64,000 nt of DNA. It comes from Eubacteriaceae bacterium (lineage in GTDB: Bacteria > Bacillota > Clostridia > Eubacteriales > Alkalibacteraceae). The DNA is taken from assembly GCA_013335935.1 (NCBI GenBank), contig JAAXUP010000003.1, positions 1 to 64,000 of the forward strand. The letters are read 5' to 3'. Positions within the stretch are counted from its first letter, which is position 1, and each line of letters starts with the position of its first letter. Under the pieces are notes generated by a model. That model ran no database searches. It was not told the origin of the DNA and saw only the letters and a program-made list of their open reading frames with translations. The position numbers and the translations under genes were made by a program. Positions 9,780 through 56,655 of the stretch are shown piece after piece.

Positions 9780-10055
9780 TGTTCTTCAGCACTTTAGCAC
9801 TTTAGCACTTTAGCACTTCTACGCTTTTCGCCAACCACCTAACCACCTAGTCACCCAACCACCAAAAAAGTCCAAGTCGCAAGTCCCAAGTCCTAAGTAT
9901 GCCAGATTCAAGCATTTCCGCAATTCACTACTTCAACACTTACGCATTTAAACGCTTTTGCCCTTTTGCTTTTCGCTAATCGTTAGTCACCTGGAGGCTA
10001 ATTGCTAACTGCCAACCACCTAACCACCTAGTCACCCAACCACCTAATGTAAATA
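9780..10055. repeat. Mosaic intergenic repeat, copy 1
   Basis: This gene-free stretch is built of short repeated words. AGCACTTT occurs about four times near 9787-9818. CCAACCACCTAACCACCTAG is present twice (about 9832 and 10013). A run of AAGTCC/AAGTCG-like words follows at 9868-9898, and then AAGTATGCCAGATTCAAGC at 9894-9912. The last block recurs with two changes at 34328, so this is a dispersed family rather than chance low complexity. No protein is plausible here. Confidence 0.8.
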
Positions 10056-10168: not shown

Positions 10169-10184
10169 ACTAACTTTAAAAAAA

Positions 10185-10209
10185 GAACAGCGTCATTGAC
10201 GCATGATTC
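10185..10209 (+). repeat. Two-hairpin repeat, partial (first hairpin only)
   Basis: GAACAGCGTC, a three-base loop, and GACGCATGATTC form the first hairpin of the dispersed family seen complete at 19092, 34467 and 43315. The second, long hairpin is absent here. It lies between tRNA-Leu and coaE. Confidence 0.6.
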
Positions 10210-10273
10210 TCACATGTGAATGTAGACATCACATGAAATATATTATAAACGCTTATGCAAAAAATGACAACTG

Positions 10274-13197: not shown

Positions 13198-13263
13198 TTC
13201 TATTCCTCCATTAATATGATTTATATCCAATTCCATATTATTTAATCAAAATAATTGGCCCCT

Positions 13264-13525
13264 GGTCCCCAGCGAGCTAGACGAATTTTCCCTACAATCA
13301 CATCGTCTTCGACGCTGTTCTTGTATTCCAGGAAAATTTGGTCCCCAGCGAGCTAGACGAATTTTCCCTACAATCACATCGTCTTCGACGCTGTTCTTGT
13401 ATTCCAGGAAAATTTGGTCCCCAGCGAGCTAGACGAATTTTCCGTACAATCACATCGTCTTCGACGCTGTTCTTGTATTCCAGGAAAATTTGGTCCCCAG
13501 CGAGCTAGACGAATTTTCCTGGAAT
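13264..13525. repeat. 76-bp tandem array of the two-hairpin repeat
   Basis: Units begin with GGTCCCCAGCGAGCTAGACG at 13264, 13340, 13416 and 13492, an exact 76-base period. There are three full units and a partial fourth. Copies are almost identical; one C-to-G change is seen near 13444. Each unit pairs TTCCAGGAAAATT with AATTTTCC on either side of the conserved AGCGAGCTAG loop, and contains GTCTTCGAC, the core of the first hairpin. The terminal copy reads AATTTTCCTGGAA and closes a longer palindrome. Single-copy relatives are at 19092, 34467 and 43315. Confidence 0.9.
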
Positions 13526-13554
13526 AAAAAAAAAGATAATTTTCATTATCTTTT
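13525..13554 (-). terminator. Terminator of ptsH
   Basis: On the minus strand AAAAGATAAT, loop GAAA and ATTATCTTTT form a hairpin followed by a run of T. It lies 16 bases after the ptsH stop codon and directly abuts the tandem repeat array. Confidence 0.75.
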
Positions 13555-13570
13555 AATTATGATACCTTAC

Positions 13571-17346: not shown

Positions 17347-18015
17347 TTACTTGTATTCATACTCATAATTTACATAATAGCCTGCTTTGGAAGAAGCTTT
17401 GTTGATCACGGTACCCAGTATGTTCGCTCCAATATTTTCCAAAGCGTCCATGGACTTTTTATAAGCTTCCCTTTCCGTGGAGCCAAGAGCCACCACCATG
17501 ATGGTTCCATCCACGATCTGGGATAGGATGAGTCCGTCTGTCACTGGCATGACCGGAGGCGAGTCGATCAGGATCATGTCAAAATGATCTTTCAGTGAAT
17601 CCACCAGTTCCCTCATCCTTTTAGAATCCAGCATCTCAGCGGGATTTGGAGGAATCGGTCCAGAAGTCAGGATGAATAAATTGTGGATTTTTGTTTCCTT
17701 AATATTTTTATCCATGAGGTTGTCCCCTACCAGGATATTGGAGAGTCCATTGGTATTTGAAAGAGAAAACATTTTATGAATTTGAGGCCTCCTGAGGTCA
17801 CAGTCCATTACAAGAACTTTCTTTCCAGATTGCGCCAGCGTAACGCCATAATTGGCTGTGATTGTGCTTTTGCCTTCTCCCTGCAAGGAACTGGTTATCT
17901 GAATGATTTTTATTACCTTGTCAATATTTGTGTAATGGACATTCGTCCTCAGATTTCTGAAGCTTTCAGAAATTGGGGATTTGGGATCCACATGAGTAAC
18001 TATCGTATTTTTCAT
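17347..18015 (-). CDS. CpsD/CapB-type tyrosine autokinase
   Basis: The 222-residue BY-kinase has Walker A SSLQGEGKST, Walker A' VLVMDCDLRRPQ and Walker B ILIDSPPV. The C-terminus carries a tyrosine cluster, GYYVNYEYEYK, the autophosphorylation tail. It has no membrane helices, so it needs the transmembrane adaptor encoded at 18012-18737, whose stop it overlaps by 4 bases. The pair controls polymer length with the phosphatase encoded at 16555-17325. Confidence 0.94.
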   Translation of the reverse strand: MKNTIVTHVDPKSPISESFRNLRTNVHYTNIDKVIKIIQITSSLQGEGKSTITANYGVTLAQSGKKVLVMDCDLRRPQIHKMFSLSNTNGLSNILVGDNLMDKNIKETKIHNLFILTSGPIPPNPAEMLDSKRMRELVDSLKDHFDMILIDSPPVMPVTDGLILSQIVDGTIMVVALGSTEREAYKKSMDALENIGANILGTVINKASSKAGYYVNYEYEYK

Positions 18016-18737
18016 TTTTTCTCCCCCTGGTCTAAGGATGTGCTGTGGGGTATCATTGCCAGTATAGGTCTGGATGAAAGAAACTCAATTTCTTCAGGAT
18101 TTTTAATTCTTGTGTCAAGATACTCCCTTATAAATACAACAAACACACCCAGCATCAGTCCCAGTACCATAGCGATGGCAATATTCATGATCGGTCTCGG
18201 TTCAACGGGATCTGTACTTGCCTCAGCAACATCGATGATATTGATATTGTCGATTTGCATAAGTTCCTTCACATAACTGCTGAAGGTGTTGGCCATCTCA
18301 TTAGCGATTTTAGCTGCAAGAATGGGATCCGTATCCTTCACCGTGATTTTTATGATTTCAGTGTCATTCACAGTAGTTACGCTGACGATATTCGCAAGTC
18401 CTTCGTTTGTGAAATCCAGATTGAGCTTCTTGATGACCTTGGTCGTTACAACTCTGGATTTTGCGATCTGTGAATAGGTAGAAACAAGCTGCTGATTTAA
18501 CAGCACATCATTATACGTGATTTCCGTATTTCCGGACTCCGTCTTGTAATCATTGGGTTTTCCAAGCATCAAAGTGGTATAGCTCTCATACTGCTTATCC
18601 AAAACAAAAAAACTGACTGCTGCAGCGACAATCATTGCAGTTATTGTGAAGACAATTAGCAGGAGTACATTATTCTTAAAAATTCTCCAAAGCTGCTTCA
18701 GGTCAATCTGGTCCATATTTTCTATCTGCTGATCCAT
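18012..18737 (-). CDS. Wzz/CpsC-type chain-length determinant, kinase adaptor
   Basis: The 241-residue protein has two membrane helices, near residues 28-52 and 180-203, around an extracellular domain. Family landmarks are QIDLKQLWRIFKNN at the start and DPVEPRPIMNIAIAMVLG before the second helix. The proline-rich PVEPRP motif before the second helix is typical. Its cytosolic tail would activate the CpsD kinase. It is the first gene of the three-gene set. The biosynthetic cluster it may control lies 25 kb away at 43.5-61.6 kb. Confidence 0.92.
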   Translation of the reverse strand: MDQQIENMDQIDLKQLWRIFKNNVLLLIVFTITAMIVAAAVSFFVLDKQYESYTTLMLGKPNDYKTESGNTEITYNDVLLNQQLVSTYSQIAKSRVVTTKVIKKLNLDFTNEGLANIVSVTTVNDTEIIKITVKDTDPILAAKIANEMANTFSSYVKELMQIDNINIIDVAEASTDPVEPRPIMNIAIAMVLGLMLGVFVVFIREYLDTRIKNPEEIEFLSSRPILAMIPHSTSLDQGEKK

Positions 18738-18985: not shown

Positions 18986-19091
18986 AGTGAGAGATTCCCC
19001 GCTTTGAACTTTTTTTTACAATTTCATTGCAGGTAGAATCAGAAAAAACGGGTATAAAACTATTATCTTTGTATTTATCTTTTCTATATTA

Positions 19092-19174
19092 CAAGAATAG
19101 CGTCTTCGACGCGTTATTCAAGTAGACTAGGAAAGTTTGGAACCTAGCGAGCTAGTCGAACTTTCCTAGTCTAA
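19092..19174 (+). repeat. Two-hairpin repeat, complete copy upstream of tkt
   Basis: The first hairpin is GAATAGCGTC, loop TTC, GACGCGTTATTC. The second is TAGACTAGGAAAGTT paired perfectly with AACTTTCCTAGTCTA around a 20-base loop holding AGCGAGCTAG. It ends 11 bases before the tkt ribosome binding site. The copy at 34467-34548 differs at only a few loop positions. Confidence 0.88.
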
Positions 19175-34138: not shown

Positions 34139-34466
34139 CTTAAATGCTTAAATGCTTAAATTTTTAGATCAATTTTGATGTCAAGGTGTTCTTGAAAATA
34201 TCTGCTTCAATGCGGAACGCATGGAATGCGTTCCCTACAAAAAGCATTTCGCCAACCACCTAACCACTATCGAGTCGCTAGTCTCAAGTCACTAGTCCCT
34301 AGTTGCAAGTCATAAGTCATAAGTCGTAAGTATGCTAGATTTAAGCATATCAGTTCTGTCTTTTCGCTAACAGCCAACTGCTAATCACCTAACAGCATTT
34401 CAGCACTTCAACATTTACACGCTTTGTTTTGGCTAATTGCCAGCAGCTATTCACCTAATCGCTTAA
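34139..34466. repeat. Mosaic intergenic repeat, copy 2, inside trpB2 leader
   Basis: The stretch shares ordered blocks with 9731-10055: CTTAAATGCTTAAAT and GTCAAGGTGTTCTT near 34139-34192, CCAACCACCTAACCAC near 34253, and repeated AAGTCATAAGTC words. It ends with AAGTATGCTAGATTTAAGC at 34328 and AGCACTTCAACATTTAC-like text near 34395. It also holds a perfect small hairpin GGAACGCAT/ATGCGTTCC near 34213. It separates the T-box terminator from the trpB2 start by about 430 bases. Confidence 0.8.
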
Positions 34467-34548
34467 CAAGAATAGCGTCTGCAACGCGTTATTCAAGTAG
34501 ACTAGGAAAGTTTGGACTCCAGCGAGCTAGTCGAACTTTCCTAGTCTA
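34467..34548 (+). repeat. Two-hairpin repeat, complete copy behind T-box
   Basis: The first hairpin is GAATAGCGTC, loop TGC, AACGCGTTATTC. The second has arms TAGACTAGGAAAGTT and AACTTTCCTAGTCTA around TGGACTCCAGCGAGCTAGTCG minus its last bases. It abuts the T-run of the T-box terminator. It is nearly identical to the copy at 19092-19174. Confidence 0.88.
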
Positions 34549-43275: not shown

Positions 43276-43314
43276 ATTCATCACCCTTTGCGAAAATTTT
43301 ATAATGAATAACAC

Positions 43315-43392
43315 GAGAACAGCGTCTCTGACGCATTATTCTCGTACGCAGGAAAATTTGGTCATCAGCCAGCTATGACGAATTTTCCTGCA
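43315..43392 (+). repeat. Two-hairpin repeat, divergent complete copy
   Basis: The first hairpin is CGAGAACAGCGTC, loop TCT, GACGCATTATTCTCG. The second has arms GCAGGAAAATT and AATTTTCCTGC around TGGTCATCAGCCAGCTATGACG. Paired positions differ from the 19092 copy on both arms, so pairing is kept while sequence changes. It lies upstream of the AnfO-like gene. Confidence 0.85.
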
Positions 43393-43394
43393 TT

Positions 43395-43425
43395 AAAAAG
43401 GATGCATTGATTTATCAATGCATCC
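43395..43425 (-). terminator. Terminator of O-acetylation genes
   Basis: On the minus strand GGATGCATTGA, loop TAAA, TCAATGCATCC and a T5 run form an intrinsic terminator 78 bases after the AlgX-like gene. It closes the transcription of the exopolysaccharide locus. Confidence 0.8.
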
Positions 43426-43502: not shown

Positions 43503-44630
43503 TTACTTCGCGATCTCGAAAGATGATAAATTTCCAGAATACCTTTCCACGAATTCCAATACAATGATATCCGGTTTATACAAATCAAGCATTTCAGGAT
43601 AGTACTCCTTGGTATGGATGATATTGACTTCAGAAAAATCATGGAACAGATGTGGCTTCATTGCTGTGGAAAAGGAATCTCCAATAAATAAAACGGACTC
43701 CTGATGAGGCGCTTTTTCATTACTATAGTTTTTAACTGTCCAGTTATCAAGATCATGAATGCTGTCCTCTACGATATATTCAGCATCATCATTGAAATAC
43801 CACTTCATGCCAACCATATTTGCCAGGCCATTATCCCCATTTTCATGTTCCTTTAGTTGGAATTTTAAGATTTTTTGTTTTTCCAAATAGCTCCTCTTTC
43901 CGTACAACACTTCCAGCAGCTGCTGTTCACCGACATATGAACCCAGCTGGTTCCAATGGGAATCATATTTATAATATGTCTGGTATCCTTCCGATACTTG
44001 AATCAATTCAGCCTTAGGATCTACAATGTCAATATTCGTATTATTATTCAGGTATTCGATCAGCACGTCGGTGCGGCTTTTATCATTGATTATTTCGATA
44101 TTTTCCGGCATATACATTTTATAGACCTGCTCCTTGTTGGGAGGGACCATCAAAACGAACCGTATTCCCCTGGATTCCATGATTTTTTTAATATCCGCCA
44201 GACAATCTTTGGTATTCTCCAACTGTTTAAGGGTCATATGATCAGTCCCCTGGTAGTCGGCTATAGGATTTCCATCAAATTCCGATTTATAAAACAGCCA
44301 ATTTTGTTTTCCCAGCAGTACCTGCTTAGAAACAAATTCACCGGTAATAAAAAATCGTAGTGAACTGTCAATTCCCGATATTTTATCAACATAAAGGATT
44401 TTGTCGTTGTAAAGGGAATCAAATTTGTTGATCATTCCTTTTATGCGATCTCCAGGTTTTGCGTCCGCTGACAGTTCCTTTTTATATTCAATAGCTATAT
44501 TGGATAAATTTGTTCTAAGAGTGCTGGAAAACTTGGCTGTGGATCCCGCCGCAAGTAAGAAAAGCGCCATGATAAAAATAATTGCAATGACTTTTTCTCT
44601 TGAAGAATTCCTGCTCTTTTCTTTTTTCAT
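43503..44630 (-). CDS. AlgX/AlgJ-like (DHHW-type) exopolysaccharide O-acetylation protein
   Basis: The 375-residue protein has one N-terminal membrane anchor (VIAIIFIMALFLLAAGS) and an extracellular SGNH-like domain. Motifs are LLGKQNWLFYKSEFDG, the catalytic-like YYKYDSHWNQLGSY (Asp-x-His) and LFIGDSFSTAMKPHL with the nucleophile-type serine. Partners of MBOAT acyltransferases with this fold acetylate polymers outside the membrane. It is 17 bases after the MBOAT gene, its expected partner. Confidence 0.85.
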   Translation of the reverse strand: MKKEKSRNSSREKVIAIIFIMALFLLAAGSTAKFSSTLRTNLSNIAIEYKKELSADAKPGDRIKGMINKFDSLYNDKILYVDKISGIDSSLRFFITGEFVSKQVLLGKQNWLFYKSEFDGNPIADYQGTDHMTLKQLENTKDCLADIKKIMESRGIRFVLMVPPNKEQVYKMYMPENIEIINDKSRTDVLIEYLNNNTNIDIVDPKAELIQVSEGYQTYYKYDSHWNQLGSYVGEQQLLEVLYGKRSYLEKQKILKFQLKEHENGDNGLANMVGMKWYFNDDAEYIVEDSIHDLDNWTVKNYSNEKAPHQESVLFIGDSFSTAMKPHLFHDFSEVNIIHTKEYYPEMLDLYKPDIIVLEFVERYSGNLSSFEIAK

Positions 44631-46126: not shown

Positions 46127-46202
46127 GCTACCCTGGCTCAGCAGGTAGAGCAGCTCACTCGTAATGAGCAGATCACCGGTTCGAATCCGGTGGGTAGCTC
46201 CA
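46127..46202 (+). tRNA. tRNA-Thr (anticodon CGT)
   Basis: The acceptor stem GCTACCC pairs with GGGTAGC, followed by T and an encoded CCA. The anticodon loop CTCGTAA, closed by GCTCA/TGAGC, gives CGT. The T-arm has GGTTCGAATCC. The gene is on the plus strand inside a minus-strand polysaccharide locus, in the only gap between the MBOAT and polymerase genes. Confidence 0.95.
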
Positions 46203-46204
46203 TT

Positions 46205-47593
46205 TTAATAATAACGCGTCGGAGATGCTGTTCTCAATTTCAACTCTTGATTTGAGGATAAAGTTAGCATTGAAAGGGGCAGCAAAATATACAGCACATC
46301 AGTCGCTGAAAATGAAAGGGCGAAGCCGGTTATTAAAATTACCATCAGGTAGAGAGATGCGCTTCCTTTGAATAGAATTGCCGGCTTCATCAATATTTCT
46401 CTCAGAAAAACAATGATGGTCATCATGCAAATGATCCCTAATTCTCCTAGGAGCTCAATATAGATATTATGCGCCGCCATCAGTTTTCCAAAATGCAGAT
46501 TCAGGATATTTGCCCCATTTGCAAATCCTGTTCCAATAAATATCATTTCAGGGTTTTTGGCAAACATGGCGATATAGCTGGTCCATATTTCTCCTCTCCC
46601 CGTCAGAAGACTATTGTACTGATTTCTTGCTTCGATAAGCGGAATGACAATATTCATGATTGCTGAATATAGCGCCAAAAGACAGACCGAAAAAATAACG
46701 ATCATCCAAAAGTATACTCTGATGGATGTTTTATTTTTATATATTTTTATGAAATAGTAGATAAAAAATGTTGCTATCACGAATAAAAATGTCAGTGCAT
46801 AACTTTTTGACAGGCTTCTAAAACCATTGAAAATCAAATAAGCTGCGATACCTGCATCAATTATCAAATTTTTCTTTTCTTTTTCATTCAGAATCAAAAA
46901 CATCATAAAAGCGATTGCGATCAAAACAAGCTGACTATAATAATTGGGATCTCCATTCAGACCAGCAAATCTGTTGATCTGATTGAGGATATCAGATACC
47001 TCATAGTTTGTGATGGAAGGAATGCCTGGCCATAGATCGGTGACAAGAATACTTAGTGCCATTGAGCACGAGAACATTAATATGCTGTTTTTAAAATATT
47101 TCAGCTTGTTGTCCGGTTCGATATCCATAAAATTAACGATACAGGTTTTTACAAATAAAACATTGAACAGGAAGGAAACTATACTGACTAATCCTGCATG
47201 GTAGATGATGGCAGAAATTATCTGGAGTGCACATATGGCAAAGAAAAGGATCAGATCCATCAGTTTAAGTGTTTTCTTCTTGTAAAAATAGGTATTTGTC
47301 ATGTAAATGACATACAAAAAAATCAAACTTGAAGGCAGATTTGACGTTAGTTTAAAAATTGCTGCAAAAGGCAGGGTGAAGATAATATAATAGTATTGCT
47401 TCTCCAGACTTTGAATGCTGAATAAAAACAGGTAGAGGCCCGTAAAAATTATTCCTGCCGTATAGGATATAAGATTGAAGGCAAAGGAATAACCCAGCCA
47501 TAGGATGCTCAATCTTAAAATGACTTTAAGCTCAAACTCCTGATAACTGGTCTTCTCTTTTAACGCCGACTCATTCCACGCATAACCATTCAT
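46205..47593 (-). CDS. O-antigen ligase/polymerase-like membrane protein
   Basis: The 462-residue protein has about 11-12 helices and a large outer loop holding RNQYNSLLTGRGEIWTSY and FGKLMAAHNIYIELLGELG. These match the Wzy_C/RfaL family. It would polymerise repeat units or ligate the polymer. The last ten codons (LRTASPTRYY) are encoded by the first hairpin of the dispersed repeat, which overlaps the 3' end. The stop codon follows within the repeat, 3 bases from tRNA-Thr. Confidence 0.85.
   Translation of the reverse strand: MNGYAWNESALKEKTSYQEFELKVILRLSILWLGYSFAFNLISYTAGIIFTGLYLFLFSIQSLEKQYYYIIFTLPFAAIFKLTSNLPSSLIFLYVIYMTNTYFYKKKTLKLMDLILFFAICALQIISAIIYHAGLVSIVSFLFNVLFVKTCIVNFMDIEPDNKLKYFKNSILMFSCSMALSILVTDLWPGIPSITNYEVSDILNQINRFAGLNGDPNYYSQLVLIAIAFMMFLILNEKEKKNLIIDAGIAAYLIFNGFRSLSKSYALTFLFVIATFFIYYFIKIYKNKTSIRVYFWMIVIFSVCLLALYSAIMNIVIPLIEARNQYNSLLTGRGEIWTSYIAMFAKNPEMIFIGTGFANGANILNLHFGKLMAAHNIYIELLGELGIICMMTIIVFLREILMKPAILFKGSASLYLMVILITGFALSFSATDVLYILLPLSMLTLSSNQELKLRTASPTRYY
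46207..46235 (-). repeat. Two-hairpin repeat, partial, forming the 3' end of the ligase gene
   Basis: On the minus strand GAGAACAGCATC, loop TCC and GACGCGTTATTATT match the first hairpin of the dispersed repeat. The second hairpin is missing; tRNA-Thr lies in its place. The repeat is translated as the C-terminus of the upstream gene. Confidence 0.6.
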
Positions 47594-53286: not shown

Positions 53287-54242
53287 CGGAAATCCGTCAA
53301 TGTTTCTCCATAGGAAAAAGCGCTCACATATTGAAAGAGCTTTTCCATATCTGCAAATAATTTGTCAATACTTTCCTCCGAAAGAAAAGTTGGATTCAAG
53401 CCTTGAGTCATTTCTGAAGAATGAAGCATGAATTCAATGTACCCATGATCATTCCTTTTGCAGATCTCTGCGGTGTCCATCATATCCTCCAGATTATCTG
53501 GTCCCGGACGGATCCAGCTATTTTTCACCAGAAGTTTGCTGATAAACAGATTCCTGAAAAAAAACGATTTTTCCAAAGAAGCCAGTAATCCTATTCCGTA
53601 TCGGGGCTTTTTAATGATCGTTACCGGTACCTCAAGGATTTTCATGTCACCCTTCATCCCGATGTTCTCAGATGATGGATGATACGCGCCAGACGGGAAT
53701 AACCGATAGTCGCTGCCTCCAAAGGCAGGATTTCCGCCTGGCATCTTTGCCCAGCTTACTCCTGGGGTGACTGAACAGTCAACCTTGTAACCGTACTTTT
53801 CCAGGAGTTTCATATAGGTTTCGTTCATTGCCCAGCGACCTGACCTGTGGGAGGTTACTTTCGTTTCAAACCTTTCCTCAAGGAGTCTGGTCATGATTAC
53901 GATTTTTTCTTCCATGATTTCAGTACTGTATTCGATCAAATAAGGCTGCCTCTGGTTGTCAGCAGTGGTCAGCGGGACAATTGGAGGTGAATTCCACCCG
54001 TGAAGATGCATGCCGATCTCGCATTGTTTTCGGTTCAGGTATTTTTTCCCAAACTTAACAAACTCCGTATCCATGGCCATCTCATAATTCGTCAGATACG
54101 TTGGCTTTAGCCCGTACTTGATGCATAACTCCTGAAAACGGAACAATTGCTTTGTGTTATTAGTGGTGATAACCTCTGGCTTGCTCCATAAATTATCACC
54201 TTCGGTATCGATCGTAATCAAGAATGGAATTTTGGATTCCAA
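53274..54242 (-). CDS. NodB-like polysaccharide deacetylase-fold protein
   Basis: The 322-residue protein has TIDTEGDNLWSKP, with the Asp and Glu of the metal site, and IGMHLHGWNSPP, the paired histidines. SHRSGRWAMNETYMKLLEKYG matches the third motif. No signal peptide is seen. The TTG start after GGTGA overlaps the FemAB-like gene by 47 bases. It may deacetylate a lipid-linked sugar in the cytosol. Several such genes occur in archaeal and bacterial polysaccharide loci. Confidence 0.8.
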   Translation of the reverse strand: MESKIPFLITIDTEGDNLWSKPEVITTNNTKQLFRFQELCIKYGLKPTYLTNYEMAMDTEFVKFGKKYLNRKQCEIGMHLHGWNSPPIVPLTTADNQRQPYLIEYSTEIMEEKIVIMTRLLEERFETKVTSHRSGRWAMNETYMKLLEKYGYKVDCSVTPGVSWAKMPGGNPAFGGSDYRLFPSGAYHPSSENIGMKGDMKILEVPVTIIKKPRYGIGLLASLEKSFFFRNLFISKLLVKNSWIRPGPDNLEDMMDTAEICKRNDHGYIEFMLHSSEMTQGLNPTFLSEESIDKLFADMEKLFQYVSAFSYGETLTDFRPGI

Positions 54243-55023
54243 GGAGATTCACCAGCCTATTCTTCTTATCATTATATTTGGTAATAATTTTTTTTGTTTC
54301 CAACACTAGTTTACCCTTTAGACTGACAGCTTCATCTACATAAAAGGTATCGATTTCCACACCTCCGAACCGGCTTTTGAAATCAGTGATATTTCGTATT
54401 TCCTCCCTGTCTGAAATTCCACCCCAGTCGTAGATCTTCCCCCCATGATTTTTAAAGGACAGCATGTCTGTATAATGCAGCAATCGATTCGCTCTGCCCA
54501 CCATATTTTTATTCACACAGGGGTCGCTTCGATAGTGAGATACCGAAAACAGGCCTCTGGCTACTTCCGAGTCATAAATCGTCACATGGCAGGCAAGAAT
54601 TTTATCACCCCATAAAGCCTTGGAAATGGCAAGATTTCCGCTTTCCCATAAAAGGGTGAGGTATTCAGTTTCATTTTTTGAAGAGGGTAATTTTTTTTCT
54701 TCCAGAAATAAATGATGGGAAAATACAAATTCTCTGATACTGTCTGCAGTTAAACTCTCCGAAAATGCCATGGTCGTGCTGATCCCTTCCCGCTGGGCTT
54801 TTCTGATTTGTTGTTGGCAGCTTTTGTGAATATTATTCCATAGCGCCTCTTCTGATTTTGTCAAATCGGTGATGAAGGTCCTGGAATGTTTTTTCAGAAC
54901 TGCAAATTCTGTTGGCGTCTGGCAATAGGAAATAATATCTGCTTTTTTATCATTATCTTTTTGTTGGGAAAACCATACTTCTTCGATCTTTACTCCTTTG
55001 CTTTCTCTGACGATACTGATCAT
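54196..55023 (-). CDS. FemAB/GNAT-like acyltransferase, paralogue 3
   Basis: The product, from MISIVRESKG at 55023, has 275 residues. It shares the segment HYRSDPCVNKNMVGRANRLL, followed by KIYDWGGIS, with the paralogues encoded at 55059 and 55897. The fold is FemAB-like double GNAT, as in proteins that add amino acids to peptidoglycan or acyl groups to sugars. The C-terminus is about 20 residues longer than in the other two. Confidence 0.78.
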   Translation of the reverse strand: MISIVRESKGVKIEEVWFSQQKDNDKKADIISYCQTPTEFAVLKKHSRTFITDLTKSEEALWNNIHKSCQQQIRKAQREGISTTMAFSESLTADSIREFVFSHHLFLEEKKLPSSKNETEYLTLLWESGNLAISKALWGDKILACHVTIYDSEVARGLFSVSHYRSDPCVNKNMVGRANRLLHYTDMLSFKNHGGKIYDWGGISDREEIRNITDFKSRFGGVEIDTFYVDEAVSLKGKLVLETKKIITKYNDKKNRLVNLLGIQNSILDYDRYRR

Positions 55024-55058
55024 CAAAACACACCCCAATACATGATTGATTTTTATAT

Positions 55059-55826
55059 TTATTTACTGCTTCGTATTATGGATCTGAACCTTTTTTTTAT
55101 TTCAAGAGCCAGTTTGCCTTTCAGGCTGACCGCTTCCTGTACAAAAAAGGTATCGATTTCCACCCCTCCAAATTTTCTTTTAAAATCGTTGATGCTTTTG
55201 ATATCAGCTTCATCCGAAATTCCTGCCCAATCATACACCTTGATTCCACGGTTCTTAAATTCAAGCATATCCCTGTAATGCAGCAGTCGATTCGCCATAC
55301 CAACCAGACGCTTATTCACACTCTCGTCGCTTCGGAAATGTGAAAAAGAAATTACGCCTCTTGTGGTAAACTCATCATAAAGATAACTGTGGTAAACAAT
55401 CACTTTCCCCTGGCTCGAAGCCACGGATAAGGCAAGGCAGTCATTTTCCCGAAGTAACTTTAAATATTCTAGTTCGTTATAGGAAGATGGCAAATTCTTT
55501 TCCTGAGTAAACAGTAGGTGAGAAGCCTGTAATTCCTGGATCATTTCCTCTGAGATATTCTTTCCAAAATATATCGCTGTCTCTATCCCTGCCCGCTGTG
55601 CACGCCTGATCTGATATCTGTCATCCTTATGAATGTTATTGAAGAGCTCCTCTTCCGGCAAGGTAAGATCATTGATCAGCGTCCGTCCTTGCTTGTTCAA
55701 ATATCCAAACTTCGAAGGTGTCTGACAATATGAGATGATGTCCACATTTTTGTCGTTTTCTTTTCTCGGGCAAAACCATACCTCTTCAATTTTTATCCCT
55801 TTATTCTTTCGAATGATGCTGATCAT
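55059..55826 (-). CDS. FemAB/GNAT-like acyltransferase, paralogue 2
   Basis: The 255-residue protein starts MISIIRKNKGIKIEEVWF and ends in a basic tail. The segment HFRSDESVNKRLVGMANRLL, then VYDWAGIS, and FGGVEIDTFFVQEAV are shared with the neighbours. It lies 35 bases after the stop of nothing else but the copy encoded at 54196-55023, in the same orientation. The substrate is unknown, possibly an amino-sugar of the polymer. Confidence 0.78.
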   Translation of the reverse strand: MISIIRKNKGIKIEEVWFCPRKENDKNVDIISYCQTPSKFGYLNKQGRTLINDLTLPEEELFNNIHKDDRYQIRRAQRAGIETAIYFGKNISEEMIQELQASHLLFTQEKNLPSSYNELEYLKLLRENDCLALSVASSQGKVIVYHSYLYDEFTTRGVISFSHFRSDESVNKRLVGMANRLLHYRDMLEFKNRGIKVYDWAGISDEADIKSINDFKRKFGGVEIDTFFVQEAVSLKGKLALEIKKRFRSIIRSSK

Positions 55827-55896
55827 CAGTTATCCCCCGTTTAACAATATATTTTTTTGAATAATAATTGCTTCCTCTTGCATATACTGAAATTAT

Positions 55897-56655
55897 CTAC
55901 TGATGAAATTTTTGAATCAGCTTTTTGAATTGAAGGGCGATTTTTCCTTTTAGTGTGACAGCTTCCAGCACGTAGTATGTCTCCGTTTCGACTCCTCCAA
56001 ATTTACTTTTAAATTCCGTGATATGTTGGATTGCGGGATCATCTGAAATCCCGGCCCAGTCATAGCTCTTAAGTCCTAGCTTTTTAAATTCCATCATATC
56101 CCGGTAATGGAGCAATCGATTCGCCATGCCGACCAATTGCTTATTCACACTGGAGTCGCTTCGGTAATGGGAAGTAGATAGTATGCCTCTTGCAATATTC
56201 TCATCATAAATATAACAGTGATTAATGATCACTTTCCCTTCATATAGGGCTCTGGAGATCATCATATGACCGCTTCTCCACCATAACCCCAAGTAATTCA
56301 GTTCGTTGGATGACAGCGGGAGTTTTTTTTCTTTTGTAAACTGTGCATGGGAAGTATGAAGTTCATTGATCATTTCCTGGGTGATGCTGTCTGAAAAATA
56401 GATCATCGTTTGGATACCCTTTTCCTCGGCATGTTTGATTTCTTGTTTGCACTTTCTATGGATTCCCTTCCAGATTTCTTCTTCCGTCATCGTCAGGTCA
56501 TTGATCAATGTTCTGCCCTTCTTGTTTAAAAAAGCAAATCCTGATGGTGTCTGACAATAGGAGATGACATCCACTTTTTTGTCATTTTCTTTTCGAGGCG
56601 AAAACCACACTTCTTCAATTTTTATCCCTTTTTCTTTTCTAACGATGCTGATCAT
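55897..56655 (-). CDS. FemAB/GNAT-like acyltransferase, paralogue 1
   Basis: The 252-residue protein has the shared start MISIVRKEKGIKIEEVWF and the block HYRSDSSVNKQLVGMANRLL with SYDWAGIS and FGGVETETYYVLEAV. It overlaps the glycosyltransferase stop by 4 bases, so the three copies belong to that operon. By eye it is closer to paralogue 2 in the C-terminal half. Function is inferred from fold only. Confidence 0.78.
   Translation of the reverse strand: MISIVRKEKGIKIEEVWFSPRKENDKKVDVISYCQTPSGFAFLNKKGRTLINDLTMTEEEIWKGIHRKCKQEIKHAEEKGIQTMIYFSDSITQEMINELHTSHAQFTKEKKLPLSSNELNYLGLWWRSGHMMISRALYEGKVIINHCYIYDENIARGILSTSHYRSDSSVNKQLVGMANRLLHYRDMMEFKKLGLKSYDWAGISDDPAIQHITEFKSKFGGVETETYYVLEAVTLKGKIALQFKKLIQKFHQ

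Follow-up and report, generated by a model that had tools for sequence, protein, structure and literature searches.

Structured two-hairpin repeats behind intrinsic terminators in a genome of the Eubacteriaceae

The 64,000-nucleotide stretch of DNA analysed here (the window; contig JAAXUP010000003.1 of a Eubacteriaceae bacterium) carries, at dispersed positions, a short sequence made of two adjacent hairpins, and at one of these positions the sequence is repeated in tandem. What sort of element is this, on which strand does it fold, and by what means could it have reached its sites? A preliminary description had put forward three possibilities: a non-autonomous mobile element, a structured RNA, or something REP-like. 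This range of readings is supported, except that the REP-like label does not hold in its strict sense, because no cognate RAYT transposase was found. The repeats are a real family of mobile structured elements with an unusual target.

Structure, copies and folding strand

The element measures about 76-85 bp. Read on the minus strand of the window, it runs from a T-run through a long hairpin (HP2) and a short one (HP1) to an end at TTCTTGT. HP1 has the form GAAYA-GCGTC-N3-GACGC-RT-TATTC, which many copies extend with ACAAG/CTTGT or ACGAG/CTCGT. HP2 adjoins it with no gap. Its outer arm comprises 7-9 variable pairs and leads into AAAGTT/AACTTT, which hardly varies; beyond a small internal loop comes the middle stem, found in the versions GAC/GTC, GTCTT/AAGAC and GCCAT/ATGGC, and at the tip a capped loop. 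On the minus strand, the main subfamilies have at this tip, set on the covarying middle stem, a G(CUYG)C tetraloop, of a class noted for its stability. In the position profile one side ends sharply at ACAAGAA; on the other, behind HP2 on the plus strand, conservation extends through an A-run of about 8 nt and no further. The two ends differ and are not terminal inverted repeats. GTAG precedes HP2 on the plus strand in one subfamily only and is missing in the diverged ones. A candidate minus-strand promoter in HP1 (TTGAAT, 16 nt, TATTCT) was dropped, as other subfamilies lack it.

The copies that the preliminary description had listed are all present, and all but one lie on the minus strand. 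The tandem array occupies 13263-13526 (period 76, 3.4 copies and 99% matches over 13263-13519). It consists of a truncated HP2 (about 13263-13295), two middle units, each without one of the outer HP2 arms (about 13296-13371 and 13372-13447), and a complete terminal HP1-HP2 unit (13445-13526), which is adjoined at 13526-13556 by an A-run (a T-run on the minus strand) and a terminator-like hairpin. Of the three complete single copies, the one at 19091-19173 (HP1 19091-19123, HP2 19123-19173) lies between a minus-strand gene (18012-18737) and a plus-strand transketolase gene, and its A-run, from 19173 on, has no terminator hairpin behind it. The copy at 34466-34548 (HP1 34466-34498, HP2 34498-34548) stands between a trpB-like gene and a minus-strand T-box leader (RF00230, 34573-34818), inserted behind the terminator of the latter and abutting its T-run. 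The third, at 43312-43393 (HP1 43312-43345, HP2 43346-43393), follows the minus-strand gene 43503-44630, whose T-run and terminator hairpin occupy 43394-43425. Two fragments hold HP1 only: one at 10183-10215 adjoins a tRNA gene, and a degraded one at 46203-46233, in the opposite orientation on the plus strand, lies directly behind the tRNA gene at 46127-46199.

Other features of the window include a Moco (molybdenum/tungsten) riboswitch (RF01055, 7400-7518, minus strand) and three tandem paralogous genes of about 250-280 codons at 54196-56655, parts of which are 67-74% alike in DNA. A second dispersed repeat, GCCAACCACCTAACCACCTAGTCACC with TTAGC-type runs, is found near tRNA and T-box loci (9830-10047 and 34380-34460, and about 2000-2200 of locus L009 elsewhere in the genome).

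A search of the kind proposed in the preliminary description, with a covariance model built from nine copies, returned at E<=1e-4 92 matches in the organism's own genome (G000, a 2.64 Mb draft of 268 contigs), 23 in a genome from another genus of the same family (G003), 21 in a genome from another family (G014) and none in the other 38 of the 41 genomes searched. A second model gave 85, 21 and 41 at E<=1e-5. The family thus numbers about 90 copies in its own 2.64 Mb genome, far from being confined to the window. In a class-wide sample, with few candidates scored per genome, two of 220 genera gave matches. An exact-pattern scan added diverged copies in Anaerotalea alkaliphila and in the Clostridia MAGs R1_Bin155, R1_Bin286, L_E1_T20_A_bin.31 and L_E1_T20_C_bin.58; its other matches look like chance by inspection. 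Phage, plasmid and viral contig collections yielded no copy, and Rfam no family, neither at gathering score nor at E up to 10. We found no description of the repeat in the library searched, which covers a minority of subscription papers.

Two hairpins had been claimed, and single copies are indeed folded much more stably than their dinucleotide shuffles (z -4.7 to -7.3; none of 200 shuffles as low), but the structure is better read on the strand opposite to the one first described. Among the HP2 outer-arm mismatches read on the plus strand there are 35 distinct A.C contexts against 5 G.T (p 1.4e-6, a guide only, as copies share descent). Substitutions in the unpaired loop favour neither strand (C>T 9, G>A 8), and HP1 mismatches are not asymmetric (12 A.C, 9 G.T). 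Since A.C on the plus strand is G.U on the minus strand, the HP2 pairing that has been maintained is that of the minus strand, as RNA or as single-stranded DNA.

That pairing is kept while the arms change, as the preliminary description had maintained, also held in a sample of 44 diverged copies from the own genome, G003, G014, Anaerotalea and the MAGs. The 20 HP2 pairs were formed in 95.3% of cells, a figure favoured by the partial derivation of the structure from the same sequences. Both-side changes were seen in 15 of the 20 pairs, and cells changed on both sides numbered 169, widely exceeding both controls (49 in shuffles, 17-27 in slid structures); the covariation score was 0.545 against 0.186 in shuffles. 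Neither of the outcomes that the preliminary description had named as fatal to its reading, a search finding only its own copies or pairing broken as often as kept, occurred.

Position behind intrinsic terminators

Of 78 copies read on the minus strand, about 74% follow immediately after the hairpin and T-run of an intrinsic terminator, in a single orientation; this figure includes a few array units, which adjoin another unit instead of a terminator. The same hairpin threshold is passed by 2.4% of left (far-side) flanks and 5% of shuffles; about a quarter of the copies have no clear terminator behind them. The hairpins are those of the adjacent genes and differ among copies, and the layout of terminator, T-run and element recurs in G003, G014, Anaerotalea and the MAGs. 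This targeting had escaped the preliminary description, as had the folding strand, the A-run and the adjoining terminator hairpin. Seven copies, judged by the antiterminator motif, follow T-box leader terminators, three of them confirmed by RF00230. Inserted in one orientation behind a terminator T-run, the element becomes the first thing after the terminator and therefore often lies in the 5' leader of the next gene; 54 of the 98 copies with both neighbours scored stand between two genes on the folding strand.

Clean empty sites, the comparison that the preliminary description had called for, were found in relatives at two loci. Upstream of glyS, the T-box and terminator are conserved in G001, G004, G005 and G014, with the ribosome site following within a few tens of nucleotides; in the own genome about 115 nt of element and a partial second unit separate terminator and ribosome site. 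At the trpB locus of the window, G001 has no insert. The terminator therefore predates the element. The upstream regions of orthologous leuS and tkt genes carry other leaders or repeats and are not comparable. The glyS upstream regions of G003 and G002 (L223, L224) hold other repeats, AGCGAAAACnAnGTTTTCGC and a tandem unit of about 92 bp; in relatives, such repeats lie behind the glyS T-box terminator or replace the T-box.

No target duplication was detected among 61 copies (a mean of 1.11 was observed, shuffled pairs giving 1.20). Orientation relative to the G-rich strand did not exceed that of the genes (47 of 56), a comparison in which the simple terminator predictor serving as baseline was unreliable through noise; the orientation thus speaks neither for nor against targeting of the lagging-strand template. 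No new insertion was observed from strain to strain. We consider it very probable that the element is mobile as such, and likely that it is a non-autonomous mobile DNA that targets terminators.

Tandem units and possible routes of movement

Arrays or partial extra units occur at more than ten loci, with a recurring period near 76-80; G014 also has two units in tandem at a distance of 77 bp. Read in minus orientation, an array comprises the terminator, the T-run, a complete HP2-HP1, units lacking the 5' outer arm of HP2 and, often, a partial HP2. Partial extra units share unusual arm bases with their own neighbour, and the junction between units sits behind CGAAnTTTCC of HP2. Decayed forms include HP1-only copies, deletions of the HP2 loop and, in two copies, inversions of the HP2 interior (C41:727, C265:47005), and point to ordinary palindrome instability. 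In R1_Bin155, three copies carry an IS110-family element (PF01548, PF02371) at the HP2 junction site; it is seen at about 1427-2994 of L182, contig CALJNR010000054.1, and two of the contigs end inside it.

Because insertion is one-sided, strand-specific and free of duplication, single-strand transposition of the HUH (IS200/IS605) kind may be proposed, a possibility that we hold tentatively. An enzyme supplied in trans would recognise the folded single strand, with HP2 at one end and HP1 at the other, and would join the HP2 end to the T-run behind the terminator hairpin, the far junction making no sequence demand. Tandem units would probably result from a replication stall in HP2 with restart before HP1, or from insertion of multimers. 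One could further imagine a new mode of transposition, in which the putative enzyme directs the folded strand to a terminator hairpin and T-run and not to a fixed sequence, and so generates tandem units; this is somewhat more doubtful. The strand-specific HP2, the one-sided insertion and the missing duplication would agree with an IS200/IS605-derived element, for which strand-specific end hairpins, insertion 3' of a short target and no duplication are expected; the target, on the other hand, is here a T-run behind a hairpin and not a fixed tetra- or pentanucleotide, HP1 lacks strand asymmetry, and no autonomous relative with the same ends was seen near the Y1 genes of the draft G000.

The mobilising enzyme was not found: reverse transcriptases, Y2 transposases and a cognate Y1/RAYT were sought without support. 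As all the genomes are drafts, such an absence is no proof. The two RAYT-like Y1 genes of G000 (L009:1075-1875, L010:1108-1887) have no copy of the repeat at their flanks and are flanked instead by other palindromes, of the GGGACGTTTCGTTTGTCC type, which look like a separate REP-like family.

These genes bear on the strongest competitor of the HUH-type scheme, a REP-type element moved, in the past or at present, by a RAYT (Y1, PF01797) transposase. The strand-specific imperfect hairpins, their high copy number, intergenic position and lack of target duplication would all suit it, and G000 and G003 encode Y1 proteins of RAYT size; the IS110-family insertions in HP2 likewise recall REPs, which are established IS targets (PMC1525189). 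RAYT genes, however, carry their own REPs at their flanks (PMC2817692), in inverted orientation, whereas those of L009 and L010 have other palindromes and no copy of our repeat. Moreover, only Y1 fragments occur in G014, a host of at least 41 copies, although an intact Y1 would be expected in each host (a comparison among draft genomes), and the diverged subfamilies lack a conserved GTAG-type head. REP/BIME systems share with our repeat the imperfect hairpins, the many intergenic copies and the role of IS target (PMC2817692, PMC1525189) but are built of inverted REP pairs, not of two unequal adjacent hairpins. We regard a RAYT-driven origin as unlikely.

Well below it in probability stands an RNA route. 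Group IIC introns insert directly behind terminator hairpins in one orientation, and terminator T-runs might similarly serve as sites for reverse splicing or reverse transcription of a folded transcript. The one-strand fold with its CUYG-type loop and the arrays with a constant T-run end and a variable far end would agree with this. Against it, neither G000 nor G014 has a reverse transcriptase, and the 80 nt of the element contain no ribozyme domains and match nothing in Rfam. We judge this route improbable.

We think it no less improbable that the repeat is an immobile cis-regulatory or processing RNA, selected in 5' leaders. Deep covariation on the coding-sense strand, the 54 copies lying between genes on that strand and the seven behind T-box leaders would be expected of such an RNA; the downstream genes are unrelated, though, the same leaders in relatives lack the element, its distribution is patchy with many near-identical copies, and HP1-only copies have decayed. 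Tandem growth by an IS110-family recombinase, suggested by the coincidence of the array junction with the IS110-family insertion site in the three MAG copies, is equally implausible as an explanation, for it would account for the arrays and not for terminator targeting.

Relation to known elements and significance

Among known kinds, the repeat most resembles BOX and REP elements, although the tests made here place it outside the REP/RAYT system. The BOX elements of Streptococcus pneumoniae (boxA-boxB(n)-boxC) are likewise short, intergenic, numerous, strongly folded, built with tandem modules and thought to be non-autonomous (PMC3049150). Here, by contrast, whole two-hairpin units are repeated, and insertion is tied to terminator T-runs, with a fixed orientation; the comparison, drawn from that paper, concerns architecture only, and no sequence relation was seen. 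The pneumococcal SPRITE repeats are also short and tied to terminators, but SPRITE itself resembles a terminator (PMC3049150), whereas our repeat targets a terminator already in place. IS1272 (IS1182 family) shares a stem-loop target and the absence of target duplication (PMC5678879); it replaces the stem-loop, while our element leaves the terminator intact and lies behind it. DDE-type MITEs differ in having terminal inverted repeats and target site duplications, and IS91/Helitron-like rolling-circle elements in their Y2 transposase, which is missing from G000, G014 and three repeat-bearing MAGs.

Bacterial genomes offer, in their many intrinsic terminators, safe sites for insertion, and by landing exactly behind them in a fixed orientation the element can spread without breaking genes. 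Whenever transcription reads through, the leader of the following gene receives a strong fold, T-box genes included. Should the enzyme be found, it would represent a transposition system aimed at a structure common to most bacteria.
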